From contig NZ_CP120367.1 in NCBI RefSeq assembly GCF_029892045.1, forward strand, positions 1,302,001 to 1,366,000: a stretch of 64,000 nucleotides of DNA. Direction: 5' to 3'. The position numbers were made by a program, and so were the translations under genes. Numbering within the stretch: the first letter of the stretch is position 1; every line of letters starts with the position of its first letter. Positions 20,545 through 58,141 of this stretch are shown here, piece after piece. The DNA comes from Sinorhizobium numidicum (lineage in GTDB: Bacteria > Pseudomonadota > Alphaproteobacteria > Rhizobiales > Rhizobiaceae). The notes below the pieces were generated by a model that was given only the letters and a program-made list of their open reading frames with translations, had not been told where the DNA came from and did not search any database.

Positions 20545-21488
20545 CGGCCCTTCTCCCGGGCCTCGATGCGATTGAGGAGCAGACGGAGCGCCAGGACGAT
20601 AATGAGGATCGCACCCTGAGCGCCGATCTGCCAGTCAGGCGAGATGCGCAGGAACGACAGGAACGAGCCGGCAAGCGTCAGGGTCAAGGCGCCGATAACG
20701 GCCCCGACCGGAGAGACGCGGCCGCCGATGAACTCGCCGCCGCCGAGGATCACGCCTGCGATCGAGAGCAGAGTGTAGCGAAGAGCGATGTTGGCGTCGG
20801 CCGACGTCGTGAGGCCGACGAGCGCGATGCCGGCGAGGACCGCGAAAATCCCGGCAAGGCCGTAGGCGGCGGCCCGGGCGGCAAGTACGGACCAGCCGGC
20901 GCGCTCGACCGAGCGCTGGTTGCCGCCGACGCCGCGGATCAGCACCCCGAGAGAGGAGCGCATGACGATGAGATGCGCGAGGATGGCGATAACGATGCTC
21001 GCGACGATCGCCATGGGGGCGAGGGGCGGCTTCATCGTCATCAGCGCACGCACCCAGTCCGGCGCCTGTCCGCCGGGCGCCGGCAGCAGGAGGACGGCAA
21101 GGCCCGCCCAGACAAAGCTCATCCCGAGCGATACGACGATCGACGGCAGGTTGCGAAGGTGTATGACGATGCCGAGCGCGGCATAGGCCATGACCAAGCC
21201 GGCAAGGACGAGCGCGCCGATAAGCGGTGCGTCACGGAGGAAGGTCGCCGTCACGCAGGCGACGAAGCTCACGAAGGTACCCATTGAGAGATCAAGGTCA
21301 TTGACCGACATGATGAGCATCTGGGCGATCGTCGCGAGGGCGATCGGAACGGCAAGATTGAAAAGCAGGTTGAGCCCGATGTAGCTCATCGCCCGAGGCT
21401 GTAACCAGAACACGGCGGCAAGCAGGATGGTCAGCGAAAGGGCGGGTATCGTCAGCCGGATCGCGTCGGCGGAAATCCTCAGCCTCAT
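20541..21488 (-). CDS. Ribose/xylose-type ABC transporter permease (RbsC family)
   Basis: 315 residues with the BPD_transp_2 blocks VNDLDLSMGTFVSFVACVTATFL and GVILGGGEFIGGRVSPVGAVIGAL. Its start overlaps the ATPase stop by four bases and its stop overlaps the next permease start by four, so all three are translationally coupled. The two non-identical permeases would make a heterodimeric channel. Confidence 0.9.
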   Translation of the reverse strand: MRLRISADAIRLTIPALSLTILLAAVFWLQPRAMSYIGLNLLFNLAVPIALATIAQMLIMSVNDLDLSMGTFVSFVACVTATFLRDAPLIGALVLAGLVMAYAALGIVIHLRNLPSIVVSLGMSFVWAGLAVLLLPAPGGQAPDWVRALMTMKPPLAPMAIVASIVIAILAHLIVMRSSLGVLIRGVGGNQRSVERAGWSVLAARAAAYGLAGIFAVLAGIALVGLTTSADANIALRYTLLSIAGVILGGGEFIGGRVSPVGAVIGALTLTLAGSFLSFLRISPDWQIGAQGAILIIVLALRLLLNRIEAREKGR

Positions 21489-49469: not shown

Positions 49470-50447
49470 TCACTTGACGGCGACAATCCGCTCATAGAGG
49501 GCCCTGATCTCCGCATCTGCAAGGTACTTGTCGTAGACCGGCTGCATGGCATCGACAAAGGGCTTCTTGTCGACCTCCACGACCTTGCTTCCCGCAGCCT
49601 CGACGGCAGCGCGCGCGGTCTTCTCAGCGGCCTCCCACAGTGCCCGCTGCTTGGCGACGCTTTCCTTCGCAGCCTGCCGGAAGATTTCCTGGTGTTCCGG
49701 GCTCAACTTGTCCCAGGTGGCCTTCGACATAGCGAGGATCTCGGGGACGATCAGATGCTGGTCGAGGCTATAGTACTTGGCGATTTCCGCATGTTTTGAA
49801 GATTCATAGCTCGGCCAGTTGTTTTCCGCCCCGTCGATGACGCCGGTTTGCATTGCGGAATAGACCTCCCCATAAGGCATGGGCGTTGCGTTGGCGCCCA
49901 GCGCATTGACCATATCGACGAAGATGTCCGACTGGATCACGCGCAGCTTCAGTCCCTTGAGGTCCGCAGGACTCTTCACCTCTCGCTTGGTGTTGTAAAA
50001 GGAGCGGGCGCCGGCATCGTAAAAAGCCAGCGCCACAAGATTGTGCTTTTCAAAAGCCTTAAGGATCTCATCGCCGATCTCTCCATCGAGCGCCTTGCGC
50101 ATGTGCTCGGTCGAGCGGAAGACATAAGGTAGCGACGGGACAATCGTTTCGGGAACGATGTTATTGAAAGGGCCCATCGACACGCGGATCATGTCGATCA
50201 CACCGAATTGCGCCTGCTCAATGACATCCTTTTCCTCACCGAGCTGGCCAGAGTGAAAGACATCGATGGAATAGGCGCCGTTTGTGCGCTCCTTTACCAA
50301 CGCGCTCATGTACTTGACCGCCTCGACGGTCGGATAACCGTCCGGATGGGTGTCGGACGACCGCAATACGGTTTCAGCCCTTGCTGTTGATAGCAGCGCT
50401 CCGACGGCCAGCGCCACAAGCGCAACTCGCTTCAAATTCTTCAACAT
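49470..50447 (-). CDS. TRAP transporter substrate-binding protein (DctP type)
   Basis: 325 residues with signal peptide [25 protein letters not shown]. DctP features: [59 protein letters not shown] (carboxylate-binding Arg) and [22 protein letters not shown]. Given the kdu genes alongside, the ligand is probably a (unsaturated) hexuronate. First gene of the minus-strand operon; divergent from kduI across a 333-base gap (50448-50780) in which no perfect operator was recognised. Confidence 0.9.
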
Positions 50448-50780
50448 TGAAATCCTCCCTAAAGTGCCCTCTTGACCTTCCCCCTCGGACGGCAACTCCT
50501 CCAGGAACCGTCCAGGGCGCCACACCGGCAAATACGGCGCGCCGAAGGCTTGAGCAGGTAAGGGCGCAATGGATTTCTTGTCAAGCAAATTTGTCTAAAT
50601 CTTATCTGCATGTCGTCGTACAACTTGTCAGTTGCGTCTCGGACGCTGATCAACCCCTCTCAAACGCTAATCCCCGATGCAGGCCGACTTGGAGCATTTC
50701 GAAAGATTTCATTTCGAGTTCGGCTTGCCCACCAGGTGAGGATATGTATGATGACTTTCAGACAAGTTTAGGGGAGACGG

Positions 50781-51623
50781 ATGACCCATACGGATTACAC
50801 GATACGCTTCGCAGTCGATCCGAAAAGCGCTGCGCGGTACGATACCGCGGAGCTGCGTGAGCAATTTTTGTTGCCGCAGCTATTTGTACCGCAGCGAATA
50901 AAGCTCCACTATACGCACTACGACCGCATGATCGTCGGGGGAGCGATGCCGATCTCCCGGCCTCTTCAGCTCGAAACAATCAAGCCCGCGGGTACGAATG
51001 ATCTGCTGGCGCGCCGGGAGTTGGTGGCGGTAAACATAGGTGGAGCCGGCTTCGTGACGGTCGACGGAGAGCGCATACGGGCAGAGCCGCGCGACATGGT
51101 CTATGCCGGTATGGGATCTTCGGTCGTGTTCGAGTCCGCCTCTCCCGAGACGCCGGCGAAATTCTATCTGCTCAGTGCGCCCGCACACGCCCGCCTGCCC
51201 GCCAGACATATCGGCGTCGACAAGGCCAAACGCATCGATCTCGGCTCACCGGCGACGAGCAACGAACGTACGATATTCCAGTTCATCCATCCGGAAGGTG
51301 CCAGCACATGCCAGCTCGTCGTAGGGATGACCACCCTCGCAGCGGGTTCGACCTGGAACACCATGCCGTGTCACATCCATGACAGGCGAATGGAGGCCTA
51401 TCTTTATTTCGATCTCGCCGAAAACGCGCGGGTGTTTCATTTGATGGGCGAACCCCAGGAGACGCGGCATCTGATCCTCAAGAATGAAGAGGCCATTGTT
51501 TCCCCCGGGTGGTCGATCCATTCGGGCGTAGGCACGTCCAGCTACAGCTTCATCTGGGCAATGGCCGGAGATAATGTCGACTACACCGACGTCGATCTGG
51601 TCGCGATCGAAGATTTGAGATGA
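50781..51623 (+). CDS. kduI: 5-dehydro-4-deoxy-D-glucuronate isomerase
   Basis: 280 residues after GGGGAG. It converts 5-keto-4-deoxyuronate (from unsaturated galacturonate) to 2,5-diketo-3-deoxygluconate. Zn ligands are visible in MPCHIHDRRMEAYLYFD (His-x-His-x4-Glu) and PGWSIHSGVGT (His). The length matches E. coli KduI. First gene of kduI - cupin - kduD. Confidence 0.93.
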   Translation: MTHTDYTIRFAVDPKSAARYDTAELREQFLLPQLFVPQRIKLHYTHYDRMIVGGAMPISRPLQLETIKPAGTNDLLARRELVAVNIGGAGFVTVDGERIRAEPRDMVYAGMGSSVVFESASPETPAKFYLLSAPAHARLPARHIGVDKAKRIDLGSPATSNERTIFQFIHPEGASTCQLVVGMTTLAAGSTWNTMPCHIHDRRMEAYLYFDLAENARVFHLMGEPQETRHLILKNEEAIVSPGWSIHSGVGTSSYSFIWAMAGDNVDYTDVDLVAIEDLR

Positions 51624-51633
51624 GGTGACGGAG

Positions 51634-51972
51634 ATGAGTTCGAACAGTCTGTTCGTATCGGCAACCGAGGCAGAATGGACCAGCCCCGAACCGGGCGTGA
51701 CCCGGCGGGTCATGACCTACCTGCCGGAAATGATGATGGTCGAGGTCGTCTTCGAAAAGGGCGCCGTCGGACAACTCCATTCGCACCCCCACGTCCAGTC
51801 CAGCTATGTGGCGGAGGGTCGTTTCGAAGTGACCATCGACGAGAAGACCCGGGTTCTCGAACGGGGAGACAGCTTCATTGTCCCGTCCAATCTGGTCCAT
51901 GGGGTCAAGGCTTTAGAAAGCGGGCGGCTGATTGATACCTTCACCCCCTACCGGGCCGAGTTTGTGAAATAG
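51634..51972 (+). CDS. kdgF: KdgF-like cupin (unsaturated uronate linearisation)
   Basis: 112 residues from MSSNSLFVSATEAEW; a GTG three codons earlier is an alternative. Single cupin domain with metal motif GQLHSHPHVQSSYVAEGRFEV and a later His in NLVHGVKAL. KdgF proteins open the ring of 4,5-unsaturated galacturonate to the keto form used by KduI. Name given from fold, size and position between kduI and kduD. Confidence 0.78.
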   Translation: MSSNSLFVSATEAEWTSPEPGVTRRVMTYLPEMMMVEVVFEKGAVGQLHSHPHVQSSYVAEGRFEVTIDEKTRVLERGDSFIVPSNLVHGVKALESGRLIDTFTPYRAEFVK

Positions 51973-51989
51973 CGTCAAGTGGGGACCTA

Positions 51990-52745
51990 ATGACCAATCT
52001 GTTCGATCTCAGTGGTCGCGTCGCGATCGTGACCGGCGCCAACACCGGCCTCGGCCAGGCAATAGCCGTCGCCCTGGCGGGAGCCGGGGCCTCGATCGTT
52101 GCAGTGGGTCGCTCTTCCATGGATGAGACGGAAGCTGCAGTGGTGAAGGCAGGCCCCCGGTTTCATGCGATCAGGGCCGACCTTAATACCCTCGATCCCA
52201 TCGCAAGTATCGTTTCTGAGACGGTCGGCGTTTTCGGAGGGCTTGATATCCTCGTTAACAATGCCGGCATCATCCGCCGCGCCGACGCGATCGACTTTAC
52301 CGAAGCCGACTGGGACGAGGTCATGGACGTGAATCTGAAGTCCGCCTTTTTTTTCGCGCAGGCGTCCGCGCGTCACATGCTTCGAAATGGTGGCGGCAAG
52401 ATCATCAACATCGCCTCCATGCTTTCGTTCCAGGGCGGCATTCGCATCGCCTCATATACCGCTTCGAAGAGCGGACTTGCCGGCCTGACGCGACTGCTCG
52501 CCTGCGAATGGGCGGCGCACGGCATCAACGTGAACGCGATAGCGCCCGGATATTTCGTCACGAACAATACGACTGCATTGCGAGAGGATCCGGAGCGAAA
52601 CGCCAACATACTTGGCCGTATTCCCGCGGGCCGCTGGGGCGAGCCATCGGATCTCGGCGGCGCAGCGATATTTCTTTCCTCAAAGGCGTCCGACTACGTT
52701 CACGGCACCATTCTGCCGGTCGACGGCGGGTGGCTCGCCCGCTGA
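51990..52745 (+). CDS. kduD: 2-dehydro-3-deoxy-D-gluconate 5-dehydrogenase
   Basis: 251-residue classical SDR. TGANTGLGQAIAVAL cofactor loop, NNAGIIRRADAIDF, Ser in IASMLSFQGG and YTASKSG catalytic Tyr/Lys. It reduces 2,5-diketo-3-deoxygluconate to 2-keto-3-deoxygluconate (KDG) after KduI. 17 bases after the cupin gene. No KDG kinase or aldolase is in the window, so KDG must be passed to enzymes encoded elsewhere. Confidence 0.92.
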   Translation: MTNLFDLSGRVAIVTGANTGLGQAIAVALAGAGASIVAVGRSSMDETEAAVVKAGPRFHAIRADLNTLDPIASIVSETVGVFGGLDILVNNAGIIRRADAIDFTEADWDEVMDVNLKSAFFFAQASARHMLRNGGGKIINIASMLSFQGGIRIASYTASKSGLAGLTRLLACEWAAHGINVNAIAPGYFVTNNTTALREDPERNANILGRIPAGRWGEPSDLGGAAIFLSSKASDYVHGTILPVDGGWLAR

Positions 52746-52822
52746 CCGATCGTCACCATGCCGCGTGATGCGGGCGGCGATGCGCCATTCGTGCAAGCCG
52801 CTGGTCCGTGGTGCAGCGTTCC

Positions 52823-53737
52823 TTACGAGAGCTGCAGGATTTCCGCGCCTTCGATCGCATAGCGTGCATGATGGAAGTCGACGATCGTCCGAAGACCCTC
52901 GTCGGACCATTTCAGCACTATGAAATAGGACGGCTTGTCAGGCGCATCGCCGTCCAGATAGACCACCGCCGCCGGGTGTCCATCGACTAGCGCCGGAGAC
53001 AATCGCCAGCCGACCATTCTCTCGTAGTTGGTGAAGTACCGCCCGGTCTCAGGCCGATCCTTCAGCGCCACATTGGCGACGACCTCGACGCGCACTTCGG
53101 TTGCGAGCATGCTGCGGATCGCGTCGAAGTCGCGGGCGTTGAAGCGTTCCACATAGGTCAACAGACGAGCGTTTTCGATGGGCGACAAACGCGGTATCGG
53201 TCGGTCATCGTGCTCGAGCGACAGTCGTTTCAGGTGCGCGCGCCCGCGGTGGACGTTAGCCTTTACCGCAGGAATGCTGATTTGGAGAATTTCGCCGATC
53301 TCCTTCAGGGAATGACCAAGAACATCCATCAGGATCACGCAGCTTCTCTGTCGCACGGGCAGCCGCGCGAATGTCCTCAGACTGGCGGACGCAACCTCAT
53401 GCCTGTCGCCGATCAGGTCAGGATCGGGTATGGCATCCACGCTGTCTTCCATTTGAATCTCCGCAGCGCGTGCCCGAGCGCGCAACACATCAAGCGCTCT
53501 GTTATGGGCGATGCGCAGGAGCCAGGCTGCAGGATTGGCGATGTGCCCGGTGCGCGGCAGCGCTTGAATCGCTTTCAACAGCGCGTCCTGTACGACGTCC
53601 TCGCCGTCAATAACGGACCCTACCATCCGGGCGCAGTAGCGGTGCAGTCGCGGCCGCATGGTCGAGAACAACCGCTGAATGTCGAGGGGCAGCGATTCAG
53701 TGCCAGCGCTCGTCGAAGGGTCTCCGCTATCATGCAT
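52823..53737 (-). CDS. ECF sigma factor with SnoaL-like C-terminal domain
   Basis: 304 residues. Sigma-2 region RPRLHRYCARMVGSVIDGEDVVQDALLKAIQAL; sigma-4 region LPVRQRSCVILMDVLGHSLKEIGEILQISIPAVKANVHRGR. The last ~120 residues form an NTF2/SnoaL-like domain, as in ECF groups that lack a separate anti-sigma factor and control themselves with this tail. The DGGG motif typical of ECF41 was not seen, so the group is uncertain. Divergent from a small gene at 53903, with matching promoters in front of both. Confidence 0.87.
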   Translation of the reverse strand: MHDSGDPSTSAGTESLPLDIQRLFSTMRPRLHRYCARMVGSVIDGEDVVQDALLKAIQALPRTGHIANPAAWLLRIAHNRALDVLRARARAAEIQMEDSVDAIPDPDLIGDRHEVASASLRTFARLPVRQRSCVILMDVLGHSLKEIGEILQISIPAVKANVHRGRAHLKRLSLEHDDRPIPRLSPIENARLLTYVERFNARDFDAIRSMLATEVRVEVVANVALKDRPETGRYFTNYERMVGWRLSPALVDGHPAAVVYLDGDAPDKPSYFIVLKWSDEGLRTIVDFHHARYAIEGAEILQLS

Positions 53738-53779
53738 GCCGATCTACTCCAGTTCCGCAACGCAAATACCCAACATCAT

Positions 53780-53807
53780 GACGTCCGGGTGAGCAAAAAG
53801 GATTCAA
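53780..53807 (-). promoter_or_regulatory. Predicted self-recognised promoter of the ECF sigma gene
   Basis: Minus strand TTGAATCC (53807-53800), 16 bases, CGTC (53783-53780). This is the same layout as the divergent site at 53827-53854. The leader to the sigma start at 53737 is about 35 bases. Confidence 0.55.
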
Positions 53808-53826
53808 GCCTCGGCAAAGAATTTCT

Positions 53827-53854
53827 TTGAATCCTTTAGCCCTCGCCGGGCGTC
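53827..53854 (+). promoter_or_regulatory. Predicted ECF-dependent promoter of the divergent small gene
   Basis: TTGAATCC (53827-53834), 16 bases, CGTC (53851-53854), followed by AT as in the mirror copy. The CGTC -10 type is common for ECF sigma factors. Confidence 0.55.
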
Positions 53855-53902
53855 ATTTCGGTACAGATCAAATCCGTTGCCGCAGAGAACAGGAGAGATG
53901 AA

Positions 53903-54313
53903 ATGAGCGTGACGATTGTTCGCTATCGCACAAGACCGGAAATGGCCGACGAAAATGAACGGCTGATTTCCGACGTCCTTCGGGAATTGCATTTGAGCGC
54001 GCCTGACGGTTTTCGTTATCTCGCCGTCAGGCTTTCAGACAACGAGTTCGTACATTTGGCCTCCTTTGACGAAGGCGCCATGCCGATCACCGAACTCAAG
54101 ACCTTCCAGACCTTCCGGGCCGGTGGCAAGGAGCGCTGGCTCGGGTCGCCCGCATTTACTGAAGCCAGCATCATTGGCGCATATGGCGCCTGGGGCAGCA
54201 TGGCGCCGCGAGACCCGACCCGCGCCACCGCCGAGGCGGCGGGTGTCCGGACCGAAGCGTCCGAACCGGAAACACATCCGAGCGAATTTGCAGCACGGGG
54301 CGGACCCTCGTGA
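53903..54313 (+). CDS. Small protein of unknown function, probable ECF sigma target
   Basis: 136 residues from MSVTIVRYRTRPEMADENERL, with GGAGAG upstream. The first ~95 residues look like a dimeric alpha/beta-barrel (antibiotic-monooxygenase-like) small domain; the last ~40 are disordered and Thr/Ala/Glu-rich. No certain family. Divergent from the ECF sigma gene and behind a promoter matching the sigma gene's own, so probably its direct target. Confidence 0.68.
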   Translation: MSVTIVRYRTRPEMADENERLISDVLRELHLSAPDGFRYLAVRLSDNEFVHLASFDEGAMPITELKTFQTFRAGGKERWLGSPAFTEASIIGAYGAWGSMAPRDPTRATAEAAGVRTEASEPETHPSEFAARGGPS

Positions 54314-54408
54314 CAACTGGGCCGTTGCTCTCGACGCGAGCGACCACGAGTGCCGGCGACCGTCCTTACCGGGCTTGAAGCGTTCGGCATGAACCAGGCT
54401 CCCTTCGG

Positions 54409-54615
54409 CTAATAGTGAGCGCCGCCGTCCTCCATCGAGTTGTTGTATCTGGCACGCGCCTGGGCCATCGCCCTCTGGTTGCTCTCGGTCCAGTCCACCA
54501 GCGCCTGAACCGTCTGCAGGAGCGTGGCGCCAAGCGAGGTCGGCGCATAGTCGACCCCGGGCGGGACGATCGGATGGAAATCCCCACTCTGCCGACCCTC
54601 TGTAAAACACGGCAA
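54409..54615 (-). pseudogene. C-terminal remnant of an HxlR-type regulator
   Basis: The frame encodes FHPIVPPGVDYAPTSLG followed by ATLLQTVQALVDWTESNQ, the end of the HxlR winged-helix domain (family pattern VPPRVEYxLTxLGxxLxxxxxAL). The preceding ~60 residues, including the recognition helix, are missing; only about 16 unrelated residues precede the match. No functional start with a good ribosome-binding site is seen. Confidence 0.65.
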
Positions 54616-54788
54616 TAATATACATTTACCACTTTGGCGGTGCTTGCTTCATGGACGAGGGATCACGAGGCGCGTCTGCGCTCGGCTATCCGCGCCATAC
54701 GGCAGCCAAGTCGGAATGGCGGGTGAACTCGGCGCTCTCGCCGGCTCTTCTGACGCCGGTCGGGCAGAGCTTATGTAAGGAGAGATCA

Positions 54789-55526
54789 ATGCGTTTAAGC
54801 CAGTTCCACTATCTCCCGCTTTCTGCTCCATTCTTTTCCGTCTTGGTGTTGTTGTTCCTCGTTCTGGTCGTGCTGATCCAGATCAGGGCTTTACACTATG
54901 CTTATACGCGTCTCGGCATCAGCGCCCGCGCCGCGCTGCTGCTTCTGTTGAGCTCACTGCTCGGCAGCTATCTCAATCTCCCGGTGGTGGAATTGCCTGG
55001 CCAGCAAGTCCTGTCCGGACAGGTGGTCGATTACTTCGGCATGAGTTACGTCGTGCCGGTCGTGGTCGATTGGCCCGGAACCGTGATCGCCGTGAATGTC
55101 GGCGGAGCACTGATCCCCAGTTTGATGTCCCTCTACCTGCTCGCCAAGAACAAGTTGTGGGGCCGCGGCTTGTTGACTACCGCCGCCGTCGCTGCAGTGT
55201 GCCACTGGCTGGCCCAACCGGTACCTGGTCTCGGCATTGCGCTGCCGGTGTTCGTTCCGGTCATCGTCACCGGGATCGTCGCATTGCTGCTTTCCCGCGA
55301 GTATGCCGCGCCGCTGGCTTACATCGGCGGCAGCCTCGGCACACTGATCGGAGCGGATCTGCTCAACCTCGGCAGTCTGCAAGGATTGGGCGCGCCGGTC
55401 GCCTCCATCGGCGGCGCCGGGACATTCGACGGGATCTTTGTCGTTGGCATCCTTGCCGTGCTCATCGCCAGCATCTCCGGAGCATTCCGTGGCTCGCGTG
55501 CAAACCACCTATCCTCAAGCGATTAA
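54789..55526 (+). CDS. DUF1614 integral membrane protein
   Basis: 245 residues from MRLSQFHYLPLSAPFF, with AAGGAGAG upstream. Six to seven hydrophobic helices. The pattern LSSLLGSYLNLPVVELPG, WPGTVIAVNVGGALIPSLMSLYLL and PLAYIGGSLGTLIGADLLNL matches the DUF1614 family, of unknown function. Convergent with the LysR gene (73 bases). Confidence 0.82.
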   Translation: MRLSQFHYLPLSAPFFSVLVLLFLVLVVLIQIRALHYAYTRLGISARAALLLLLSSLLGSYLNLPVVELPGQQVLSGQVVDYFGMSYVVPVVVDWPGTVIAVNVGGALIPSLMSLYLLAKNKLWGRGLLTTAAVAAVCHWLAQPVPGLGIALPVFVPVIVTGIVALLLSREYAAPLAYIGGSLGTLIGADLLNLGSLQGLGAPVASIGGAGTFDGIFVVGILAVLIASISGAFRGSRANHLSSSD

Positions 55527-55599
55527 CTTTCGGCAGTGCTCTCGAGCAGGTCCTGGTGTTCTGCTGATTTCGAGATCTTGAGGTCCGTTGCGGACGCTG

Positions 55600-56541
55600 C
55601 TACCGAGCGTCGGCTTCGGCGGTGCTTTCGCGTGTCGATGAATCGGCGGGCTGCCCGGCGCAAACGGCTCGAACGCACCCGCGCAGCCAGCGATGCGCTG
55701 GATCAGCGTCCAGTCGCGGGTGCCAAAGCAAAGAAACTGTGACCTCCGGCATTAAGACCGGAAGTGAAAAAGAATGCATTCCGACGCGCAAGGCTCCGGT
55801 GTGACGTTCGGGGACACTGGCGATCAGGTCGGAGGCCCGGGCGAGAGCCAGCGCGGTCGAAAAGCCACCGACGATCGTGACGATCTCCCGTTCCAGCCCG
55901 AGCGGCTTCAAGGCCTCATCGATCGGTCCCTTGTCGAGACCCCGCCGCGAGACGCAGATGTGTCTGCCGCTCGCATAACGCGAGGGAGTGATCTCGCCCT
56001 GGCTCAGGGGGTGCCCCATTCGCACGACGCCAATGAAACGGTCCCGGAATAATGCCTGCACACGCACTTCCGGGCCAGTCGTCTCCCCGACAACGCCGGT
56101 TTCCAGATCGACGGTTCCGTCGCGAAGTGACGCGCTGTCCTTGTTTGATTTCTGCACGAAGCGCAGCCGCACGCCGGGAGCTTGCCTGCCGACGCGAACG
56201 ATGAGGTCCGGCCCGAAATTTTCGACAAAACCTTCGCTGGTGCGCAGCGTAAACGTTCGAACGAGCTGTCTGAAATTGAGCTTCTCGGCAGGACGTAAAA
56301 CGGCTTCTGCGTCCTCTACGAGCCGACGGACCCGCTCGCGGAGTTCGAGCGCACGGGGTGTGGGAACGAGACTGCGTCCGGCTCGAACCAAGAGCGGATC
56401 GCCCGTCGTTGCGCGCAATCGCGCCAGCGCCCGGCTCATCGCCGACGGGCTAAGCCGCAACCGTTCAGCCGCGCGCGCAACGCTACCTTCCGCGAGCAGT
56501 ACATCAAGGATGACAAGCAGGTTGAGATCGTGTTTCGACAT
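55600..56541 (-). CDS. LysR-family transcriptional regulator
   Basis: 313 residues. Winged HTH at the N-terminus (LNLLVILDVLLAEGSVARAAERLRLSPSAMSRALARLR), then a PBP2-fold effector domain (FTLRTSEGFVENFGPDLIVRV). Pattern close to NodD/LeuO-like subgroup members. Divergent from the DHA2 efflux gene, the normal setting for a local LysR activator; the 139-base gap should hold its site. Confidence 0.88.
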   Translation of the reverse strand: MSKHDLNLLVILDVLLAEGSVARAAERLRLSPSAMSRALARLRATTGDPLLVRAGRSLVPTPRALELRERVRRLVEDAEAVLRPAEKLNFRQLVRTFTLRTSEGFVENFGPDLIVRVGRQAPGVRLRFVQKSNKDSASLRDGTVDLETGVVGETTGPEVRVQALFRDRFIGVVRMGHPLSQGEITPSRYASGRHICVSRRGLDKGPIDEALKPLGLEREIVTIVGGFSTALALARASDLIASVPERHTGALRVGMHSFSLPVLMPEVTVSLLWHPRLDADPAHRWLRGCVRAVCAGQPADSSTRESTAEADAR

Positions 56542-56680
56542 GCGTCGACGATAGCACGGATTGGCCGTGACACGGCGTCAAACGCACGAATAACATGCAA
56601 ATCGTGCGTGTTCCGCCATATCAGGCAAAGGACTAGTTTCTGGCAGCTTCCGTTTCGGGGGCCGCCAGAAAACGGAGTTC

Positions 56681-58141
56681 GTGTTGAAGCCCACTACCGC
56701 AGAACGAGATGAGGCAGTCACCGGAAGGGCGAAACAGGCCCCTTCTGCTCGCTGGGCGCTCGCCAGCCTCTCGCTATCCATGTTGATGTCATCGCTCGGT
56801 ACCAGCATCGCCAATGTTGGCTTGCCGACGTTGGCACAAGCGTTCACCGCCTCTTTCCAGGAAGTCCAGTGGGTCATCCTCGCCTACCTCCTCGTCATCA
56901 CCAGCCTGATCGTTGGCGTCGGACGGCTCGGCGACGTTACCGGCCGACGACGGCTGCTGCTTGCCGGGATCTTTCTGTTTACAGTGGCCTCCGGATTAAG
57001 CGGCGCCGCGCCAACGCTCGGGCTGCTGATTGCCGCCCGGGCGGTGCAGGGCCTCGGAGCGGCGATCATGATGACTCTCACCATGGCGTTCGTCGGTGAG
57101 ACGGTCCCGAAGGAAAGGACCGGTAGCGCCATGGGGCTGCTCGGAACGATGTCTGCGATCGGCACCGCGATCGGTCCATCGCTCGGCGGCATTCTGATCT
57201 CCTGGCTCGGTTGGCAGGCAATTTTCCTTATCAACCTGCCGCTCGGCGTCCTCGCTCTTCTTCTCGCGCATCGCTACCTGCCCGTTGATCGCATGGCGCA
57301 GAAGTCTGACCGGATCAGTTTCGATAGGCTCGGCACACTTCTGCTGGCGCTTATGCTCGCGGCTTATGCGTTTTCCATGACGGTCGGGCGCGGCAGCTTC
57401 GGCCCGCTGAACATGGCTTTGCTGTTAGCTGCTGTCATTGGGGTCGGCCTTTTCGTGCTCGTCGAGGCGAGAGCAGCATCCCCTTTGATCCAAGTGGAGA
57501 TGTTCCGCGACCCAGTGCTGAGTGCGAGCCTCCTGGCGAGCGCGCTTGTCTCGACGGTGATGATGGCGACGTTGGTGGTCGGGCCGTTTTATCTCTCTCG
57601 TGCGCTCGGGCTCGGGGCAGCTCTTGTTGGGCTCCTCATGTCGGTCGGGCCGCTTGTCGTCGCGCTGACCGGCGTGCCGGCGGGTCGAATCGCGGACCGT
57701 CTCGGCGCACCACCCGTGATTGTCGTTGGGCTCATTGGCGTAGTGGCAGGCTGCTTCATTCTATCTCTGACGCCCGCGACGCTCGGCATTTTCGGCTACA
57801 TCGCCCCCATTGTCGTCATCACAGCCGGCTACGCGCTGTTTCAAACGGCTAACAACGCCGCCGTCATGACGGATGTCTTCCCGGAGCAGCGGGGGGTCAT
57901 TTCCGGCATCCTCAACCTGTCGCGCAATCTCGGCCTTATCACCGGCGCATCCGTCATGGGCGCCGTCTTCGCGTTCGCATCGGCGACGACCGACATAACA
58001 ACGGCGCCTCCCGAGGCCGTTGCCACCGGAATGAGGGTGACGTTCGCGGTCGCGGCGATCCTCATCGTCGTCGCGCTCGCCATTGTGGTTGGAAGCCGTA
58101 CCTTCGCAACACGCCCTTCGCTTCCTCGAGACGTATCCTGA
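56681..58141 (+). CDS. DHA2-family (EmrB/QacA) multidrug efflux MFS transporter
   Basis: 486 residues with about 14 hydrophobic segments. The motif A-like loop is GVGRLGDVTGRRRLLLAGIFLF and motif C-like GTMSAIGTAIGPSLGGILISWLGWQAIFLINLPLG, both typical of DHA2 drug/proton antiporters. The start is GTG (56681) or TTG (56684); GGAG at 56674-56677 favours the TTG. Probably induced through the divergent LysR protein. Confidence 0.88.
   Translation: MLKPTTAERDEAVTGRAKQAPSARWALASLSLSMLMSSLGTSIANVGLPTLAQAFTASFQEVQWVILAYLLVITSLIVGVGRLGDVTGRRRLLLAGIFLFTVASGLSGAAPTLGLLIAARAVQGLGAAIMMTLTMAFVGETVPKERTGSAMGLLGTMSAIGTAIGPSLGGILISWLGWQAIFLINLPLGVLALLLAHRYLPVDRMAQKSDRISFDRLGTLLLALMLAAYAFSMTVGRGSFGPLNMALLLAAVIGVGLFVLVEARAASPLIQVEMFRDPVLSASLLASALVSTVMMATLVVGPFYLSRALGLGAALVGLLMSVGPLVVALTGVPAGRIADRLGAPPVIVVGLIGVVAGCFILSLTPATLGIFGYIAPIVVITAGYALFQTANNAAVMTDVFPEQRGVISGILNLSRNLGLITGASVMGAVFAFASATTDITTAPPEAVATGMRVTFAVAAILIVVALAIVVGSRTFATRPSLPRDVS

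Follow-up and report, generated by a model that had tools for sequence, protein, structure and literature searches.

The window analysed here is a stretch of 64,000 nucleotides of Sinorhizobium numidicum, part of a 6.72-Mb genome assembled in three contigs. Two of its genes point away from each other: an ECF sigma factor gene of 304 aa, with sigma2 and sigma4 regions and a C-terminal extension (52823..53737, minus strand), and a small gene of 136 aa, hereafter the partner (53903..54313, plus strand), preceded by a likely ribosome-binding site read from the sequence (AGGAGA, 53891..53896, plus strand). The intergenic region between them (53738 to 53902) holds two outward-facing sites of 30 bases. 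A preliminary description of the window had placed the motif TTGAATCC-N16-CGTCAT on both strands between these two genes, and both the motif and its position were confirmed: exact copies lie at 53807..53778 on the minus strand, which reads TTGAATCCTTTTTGCTCACCCGGACGTCAT, and at 53827..53856 on the plus strand, which reads TTGAATCCTTTAGCCCTCGCCGGGCGTCAT. From the exact sites and the family consensus, we predict a promoter of the sigma gene at 53778..53807 (minus strand; -35 element GAATCCTTT at 53805..53797, -10 element CGTC at 53783..53780) and a mirror promoter of the partner gene at 53827..53856 (plus strand; -35 element GAATCCTTT at 53829..53837, -10 element CGTC at 53851..53854). The predicted elements are separated by 13 bases, and CGTC lies 42 bases from the start codon of the sigma gene and 48 bases from that of the partner gene. 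Further matches had been noted in the spacer: CCGG is indeed in register between the two arms, but CTC is one base out of register. In the promoter alignment of family instances, the letters of the spacer were not conserved.

The minus-strand gene encodes a sigma factor of the ECF type, which is group 4 of the sigma-70 family. Pfam recognised Sigma70_r2 (9.1e-16) and Sigma70_r4_2 (2.5e-13), both above cut-off, and no sigma3 region, and the TIGR02937 sigma70-ECF model scored 72.5 bits (cut-off 42.9). The bipartite -35/-10 motif expected upstream of autoregulated ECF genes is present and conserved, as the predicted promoter at 53778-53807. The two best NCBIfam matches, PRK08241 and SigX5 (TIGR02960), which we take to be models of SigG-like sigma factors, reached 132.7 and 120.4 bits and missed their cut-offs of 240 and 264.75. 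Among the matches listed, the closest homologues are 61-64% identical. The extension (residues 194-304; 52826..53158, minus strand) appears SnoaL-like based on a SnoaL_2 match of 20.6 bits, below the Pfam cut-off of 27, and on Foldseek, whose best match to the sigma model was the SnoaL-bearing SigG1 (7qh5) with a TM-score of only 0.28. PF12680 was found in many of the homologues among the matches listed, but is absent from the three nearest. The model has a mean pLDDT of 65.9 and is poor in the extension, so we make no claim on the fold of this part. The recognition helix of region 4 (residues 155-173; 53219..53275, minus strand), with A160 and H163, was defined from the model helix and the comparison of clades described below. 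No recognisable membrane anti-sigma gene adjoins the sigma gene.

For the partner, the model predicts a dimeric alpha-beta barrel of the ferredoxin-like type over residues ~1-93, as in antibiotic-biosynthesis-type monooxygenases (ABM), and its tail after about residue 90 has low confidence. Monooxygenases of the ABM type such as LsrG and PA0709 would share this fold, but their sequence identity to the partner is 13-15% and the partner has no Pfam ABM match; one of 16 members of its family reaches E 0.0079. No solved structure was found by sequence (best E 0.33), and a profile comparison with the ABM proteins of the sister clade of sigma factors (clade B) was unsupported, with a probability of 0.4%. 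A database search with the partner retrieved the partner itself alone (1 of 55 candidates) because the word method is limited; a profile built locally from these loci recovered the family, a member of which adjoins the sigma gene at 65 of the 109 loci. The divergent small gene had been proposed as the main target of the sigma factor. The relatives argue for its being a target, since their partners lie behind the same predicted promoter, either divergently or first in a partner-sigma order.

The stretch 52752-55635, which comprises the sigma gene, the partner and, downstream of the latter, a gene for a DUF1614 membrane protein (54651-55526, plus strand), had no DNA match in seven same-genus genomes, and the sigma gene was absent from these genomes at E 1e-40. 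Because both flanks of the stretch were found in some of them, we conclude from these comparisons that the module is accessory, and it was probably acquired. A search of plasmid records gave no match to the locus. Beside the partner, a 68-aa open reading frame resembling the C-terminal half of HxlR (54409-54615, minus strand; 17.9 bits, Pfam cut-off 20.8) is a possible gene remnant. Further along, a LysR-type regulator (minus strand) diverges from an MFS exporter gene (plus strand) at 55600-58141, both named from their open reading frames; no exact motif match of the genome lies at this MFS gene, though MFS genes are a frequent mirror target in relatives. On the other side, 49470-52745 holds a run resembling genes of sugar-acid uptake and use: a TRAP-type solute-binding protein (assigned by eye), KduI/IolB, a cupin and a short-chain dehydrogenase.

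The identical spacing on both strands had been taken to make chance unlikely. On the window alone, this constitutes only a moderate case. We simulated 30 windows with a first-order Markov model and searched for outward-facing mirror pairs with 8+6 letters identical, a spacer of 13-18 and a gap of at most 100. At least one comparable pair was present in 9 of the 30 windows, so the mirror pair is not decisive by itself. The real window has a second such pair at 20826/20900, and the pattern with three mismatches is not enriched in it (3 observed vs 5.93 expected). The case becomes clear once relatives are compared.

We compiled 110 loci with the sigma gene: 29 homologue loci of same-family genomes, the window's copy and 80 named loci (alignment-based scan). 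The set includes three duplicate records (L010/L055, L012/L054 and L016/L088), of which L054 alone was removed. GAATC-N17-CGTC occurs 82 times across these loci, compared with 3-9 occurrences at each other spacing (12-16 and 18-22), and 78 of the 82 sites lie upstream of the sigma gene, at most 1.5 kb away. Their consensus, derived from 77 instances (74 unique, L054 dropped), is cGAATC[C/T]TTT-N13-CGTCTT. Compared with the proposed motif TTGAATCC-N16-CGTCAT, the core shared by the family is rather GAATC[C/T]TTT-N13-CGTC. In a tree of 108 sigma proteins, 78 rows including the window's sigma factor, which sits on a long branch (0.78), form clade A, and the other 30 form clade B; the split has an SH-aLRT of 88 (not starred). 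A degenerate pattern searched on the sigma strand over 1010 bp upstream matched 72 of the 78 clade-A loci, six having no A-type site on that strand, while the control stretches of 1010 bp downstream of 74 loci gave four matches on both strands. A weight-matrix scan also scored some controls highly by chance: of 105 stretches downstream, five passed 12 bits, and the highest reached 21.8, the maximum being 29.8. The preliminary description had set the promoters of homologous sigma genes as a test of its motif: the motif is conserved with fixed spacing, including in the held-out loci described below.

A mirror pair is present in 35 of the 78 clade-A loci and absent from 37. The distance between the two arms, measured G to G, is 12-13 in seven loci and 20-33 in 28 loci, 26 being the commonest value. 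The locus L019 carries a nearly perfect inverted repeat at about -250 to -175 from the start of the sigma match, with a DUF1428 gene behind; it consists of two predicted GAATCTTTTT...CGTC promoters placed 13 bases apart from G to G. The genes behind the mirror promoter are diverse among relatives: MFS exporters (many Bradyrhizobium loci, L040, L048-L050 and L058), glutathione S-transferases (L016, L073, L096, L097 and L186), tautomerases (L011, L015 and L083), NmrA-like proteins (L082 and L084), glyoxalase-type proteins (L018, L108 and L116) and DUF1428 proteins (L017, L019, L022 and L028). Pfam confirmed the identity of ten representatives, including a distal MFS gene (L169) and a distal NmrA gene (L171), and the others were named by likeness.

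At the level of whole genomes, the exact pattern GAATCYTT-N14-CGTC was found 46 times in 15 genomes with the sigma gene vs 10 times in 14 genomes without it, and the backward pattern used as a control was found four times in each group. The window's genome presents four exact matches: the mirror pair and two further ones, which we rejected as targets since they are inside genes. This suggests that the credible target promoters of this genome are two, both at the sigma/partner locus. The genome scan that had been recommended, run with the pattern first proposed and two mismatches, gave 418 matches vs 184 for the backward control and is too loose to name targets. Among nine distal matches in relatives (L168-L176), all drawn from the exact sites of this comparison, three precede a plausible gene, encoding an MFS protein (L168 and L169) or an NmrA-like protein (L171); the other six overlap genes or have no called gene behind them.

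The predicted -35 element differs between the two clades. Clade-A loci have GAATC or GCATC, the latter at many Bradyrhizobium loci and at some others, whereas many members of the sister clade B have GAT[C/T]CGTTT; GATCCGTTT or GATTCGTTT was identified at 15 clade-B loci and no element was recognised at the remaining ones. The residues A160/H163 vs S160/Q163 of the recognition helix separate clade A from clade B. Among sigma factors whose promoter is of the A type, 72 of 73 have H at position 163 (window numbering; L068, with N, is the exception), and among those with the B type, 14 of 15 have Q, one being unreadable. We held out 20 loci outside the earlier set. An A-type site was found on the sigma strand for all six held-out sigma factors with A160/H163, four of these sites being within 140 bp and two being weak (L183 at -872 and L185 at -1384), and a B-type site for all four with S160/Q163. 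At L192, whose helix is not matched by the pattern, a B-type site was found together with a single A-type match that departs from the consensus, and neither promoter type was found at nine loci with other or unreadable helices. Two loci with G160/Q163 (L081 and L085) present a third -35 type, GTTTCCTTT, before CGTC, with an ABM gene behind. The link between residue and promoter corresponds to one transition in the tree, and is therefore a lead; an independence test of helix residue against promoter had two independent pairs and gave no significance.

We aligned the SigW chain 5wuq with the window's sigma factor, in which residue 171 meets residue 182 of SigW. Based on the end points of this alignment and the shared K..HRGR motif, position 163 corresponds to SigW H174 and position 160 to SigW T171. 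In the structure of SigW with DNA, H174 is packed against the bases opposite -32/-33 and T171 meets A-34, the -35 element being GAAACCT (available text of PMC6713349). On this frame, the elements read GAATCCT in clade A and GATCCGT or GATTCGT in clade B; the differences fall at -33 and -30 and, in part, at -32. By this analogy, position 163 is a plausible specificity residue for the -35 element.

Several known systems resemble the module. The ECF41 sigma factors (Ecf41 of B. licheniformis and R. sphaeroides, RpoE9 of S. meliloti and SigJ of M. tuberculosis) likewise have a sigma2-sigma4 core, and their SnoaL-like C-terminal extension would correspond to the putative one here. In the available parts of PMC3426412 and PMC6180224, they are described as having no adjoining classical anti-sigma gene and a narrow regulon that consists of a single small enzyme operon nearby, and their promoters share the -10 CGTC and a spacer of 16 +/- 1 with ours. 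Their -35 element is TGTCACA (TGTCACA-N16-CGTC; PMC3426412), vs GAATCCTTT here, and their neighbours are COE genes, vs an ABM-type partner and others here. The ECF41 linker motif WLPEP between sigma2 and sigma4 was found in none of 109 sequences, the window's included, and the distal NPDK-type motif in none of 73 sequences with an A-type promoter. With neither motif and another -35, membership of ECF41 was rejected for the window's sigma factor. The extension of ECF41 acts in place of an anti-sigma factor (PMC3426412, as available), and by analogy the extension probably sets the activity of the sigma factor here too. The ECF56 pair SigG1-RsfG of Streptomyces tsukubaensis provides the nearest solved structure (7qh5), both in sequence and in Foldseek comparison; it has a SnoaL_2 extension and a small neighbouring protein with no Pfam match, but the promoter reported for it (CCG-N17-CCCTCC; available text of PMC7730460) is absent here. 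ECF29 (RpoE8 of S. meliloti) is rhizobial and among the ECF groups with extensions (PMC8999054, in part), but its -35 GGGAAC, its -10 GCATCCAA (PMC6180224, in part) and its neighbours are not matched here. ECF294, with a representative from Herbaspirillum hiltneri, is listed among the groups with SnoaL-like extensions in the available part of PMC8999054. A Herbaspirillum locus of our set (L087) falls in clade A, and ECF294 may be the formal home of the window's sigma factor. Our literature search found no paper naming the motif, and the group-wide ECF classification, which reportedly gives promoter predictions of its own, may already list it. The accessible parts of the literature found give no inducing signal for SnoaL-bearing ECF groups.

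Other explanations of the mirror sites can be weighed against these data. A functionless chance repeat, which the frequency of pairs of equal size in simulated windows would allow, has almost no probability left: spacing, position and orientation are conserved in relatives, which argues for more than chance and refutes this explanation for the family. The inverted GGATTC...GAATCC could also be the operator of a dimeric regulator, given its symmetric half-sites in a divergent promoter region and the near-perfect mirror sequence across both arms of L019. However, the 37 clade-A loci mentioned above have a single site only, oriented along the gene; the half-site spacing ranges over 12-33, whereas the spacing to CGTC stays constant at 17, the opposite of what an operator predicts; and the sigma gene is the only regulator gene common to the examined loci. 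We consider an operator highly improbable. Only slightly less improbable is that a resident ECF sigma factor, for example of the EcfG type of the general stress response, uses these promoters, with the neighbouring sigma gene as just one target among others. CGT-type -10 and GAA-containing -35 elements are indeed common among ECF promoters (available text of PMC3426412), but the number of exact sites tracks the sigma gene (46 vs 10, as above), the seven same-genus genomes without this gene hold 0-3 sites each, and the -35 type tracks the clade of the adjacent sigma gene.

The role of the partner is less settled. Rather than being mainly a target enzyme, it could be a cytoplasmic anti-sigma factor or co-regulator. 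RsfG, a protein of 17 kDa with no Pfam domains, is co-transcribed with and bound to the SnoaL-bearing SigG1 (available text of PMC7730460), no solved relative is closer to the window's sigma factor than SigG1, and the partner adjoins the sigma gene in the majority of loci given above. We nevertheless regard this role as rather unlikely: the predicted fold is that of an ABM-type monooxygenase, Pfam assigned six of the eight scanned operon genes of clade B to ABM and one to EthD, clade-A loci such as L016, L048, L073, L096, L097 and others have the promoter but no partner, and the COE protein neighbouring ECF41 is reported to have no effect on signalling in the available part of PMC3426412.

We therefore favor, with a probability of about 0.87, the explanation that the mirror sites are promoters of the adjacent ECF sigma factor, with activation of its own gene, co-induction of the partner, control by the extension and a small-molecule signal. 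The first proposal, in which this sigma factor recognises the motif as its promoter, is supported by the conservation of the motif upstream of homologous sigma genes and by its fixed spacing; recognition by the adjacent sigma factor is very probable because the same signal precedes related sigma genes in many bacteria and often genes of the detoxification type as well. The sigma factor would recognise both GAATCCTTT-N13-CGTC sites and would thus activate its own gene through the leftward promoter. The rightward promoter would turn on the partner gene and, as one sigma factor would serve both promoters, sigma factor and partner would rise together. The activity of the sigma factor would probably be controlled by the SnoaL-like extension, as the analogy to ECF41 and SigG1 suggests. 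The second gene of the module apparently changes among relatives, from the partner to an MFS exporter, a glutathione S-transferase, a glyoxalase, a tautomerase, an NmrA-like protein or a DUF1428 protein. Since the back-to-back promoter serves a changing set of such genes, the signal to which the module responds is most likely a small molecule that is reactive or aromatic, as judged from the names of the target genes. The regulon would be small and is perhaps related to detoxification.

A bolder and more doubtful reading, which we put forward tentatively, is that the module forms a portable detoxification cassette that ignites itself and whose -35 specificity shifts between clades with one residue of the recognition helix. 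A sigma factor with a built-in sensor would drive itself from one arm of the back-to-back promoter, and the other arm would be a socket taking different protective genes. The geometry would be restricted, with roughly one turn of the helix, or roughly two and a half, between the two -35 elements, and the code would pair H163 with GAATC/GCATC and Q163 with GATCCG/GATTCG.

The promoter is known for very few SnoaL-bearing ECF groups. A firm promoter would lead to the regulon without experiment, and targets of the detoxification type hint at the signal. Our analysis supplies two sister promoter types and a candidate for the residue that decides between them, and orthogonal ECF promoter pairs are useful as parts. 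If the reading as a cassette with a code is true, it would reveal a natural -35 recognition code that is testable in a few swaps. If the ordinary part alone is true, these results would still constitute a clean promoter assignment for a widespread and apparently unstudied family of sigma factors.
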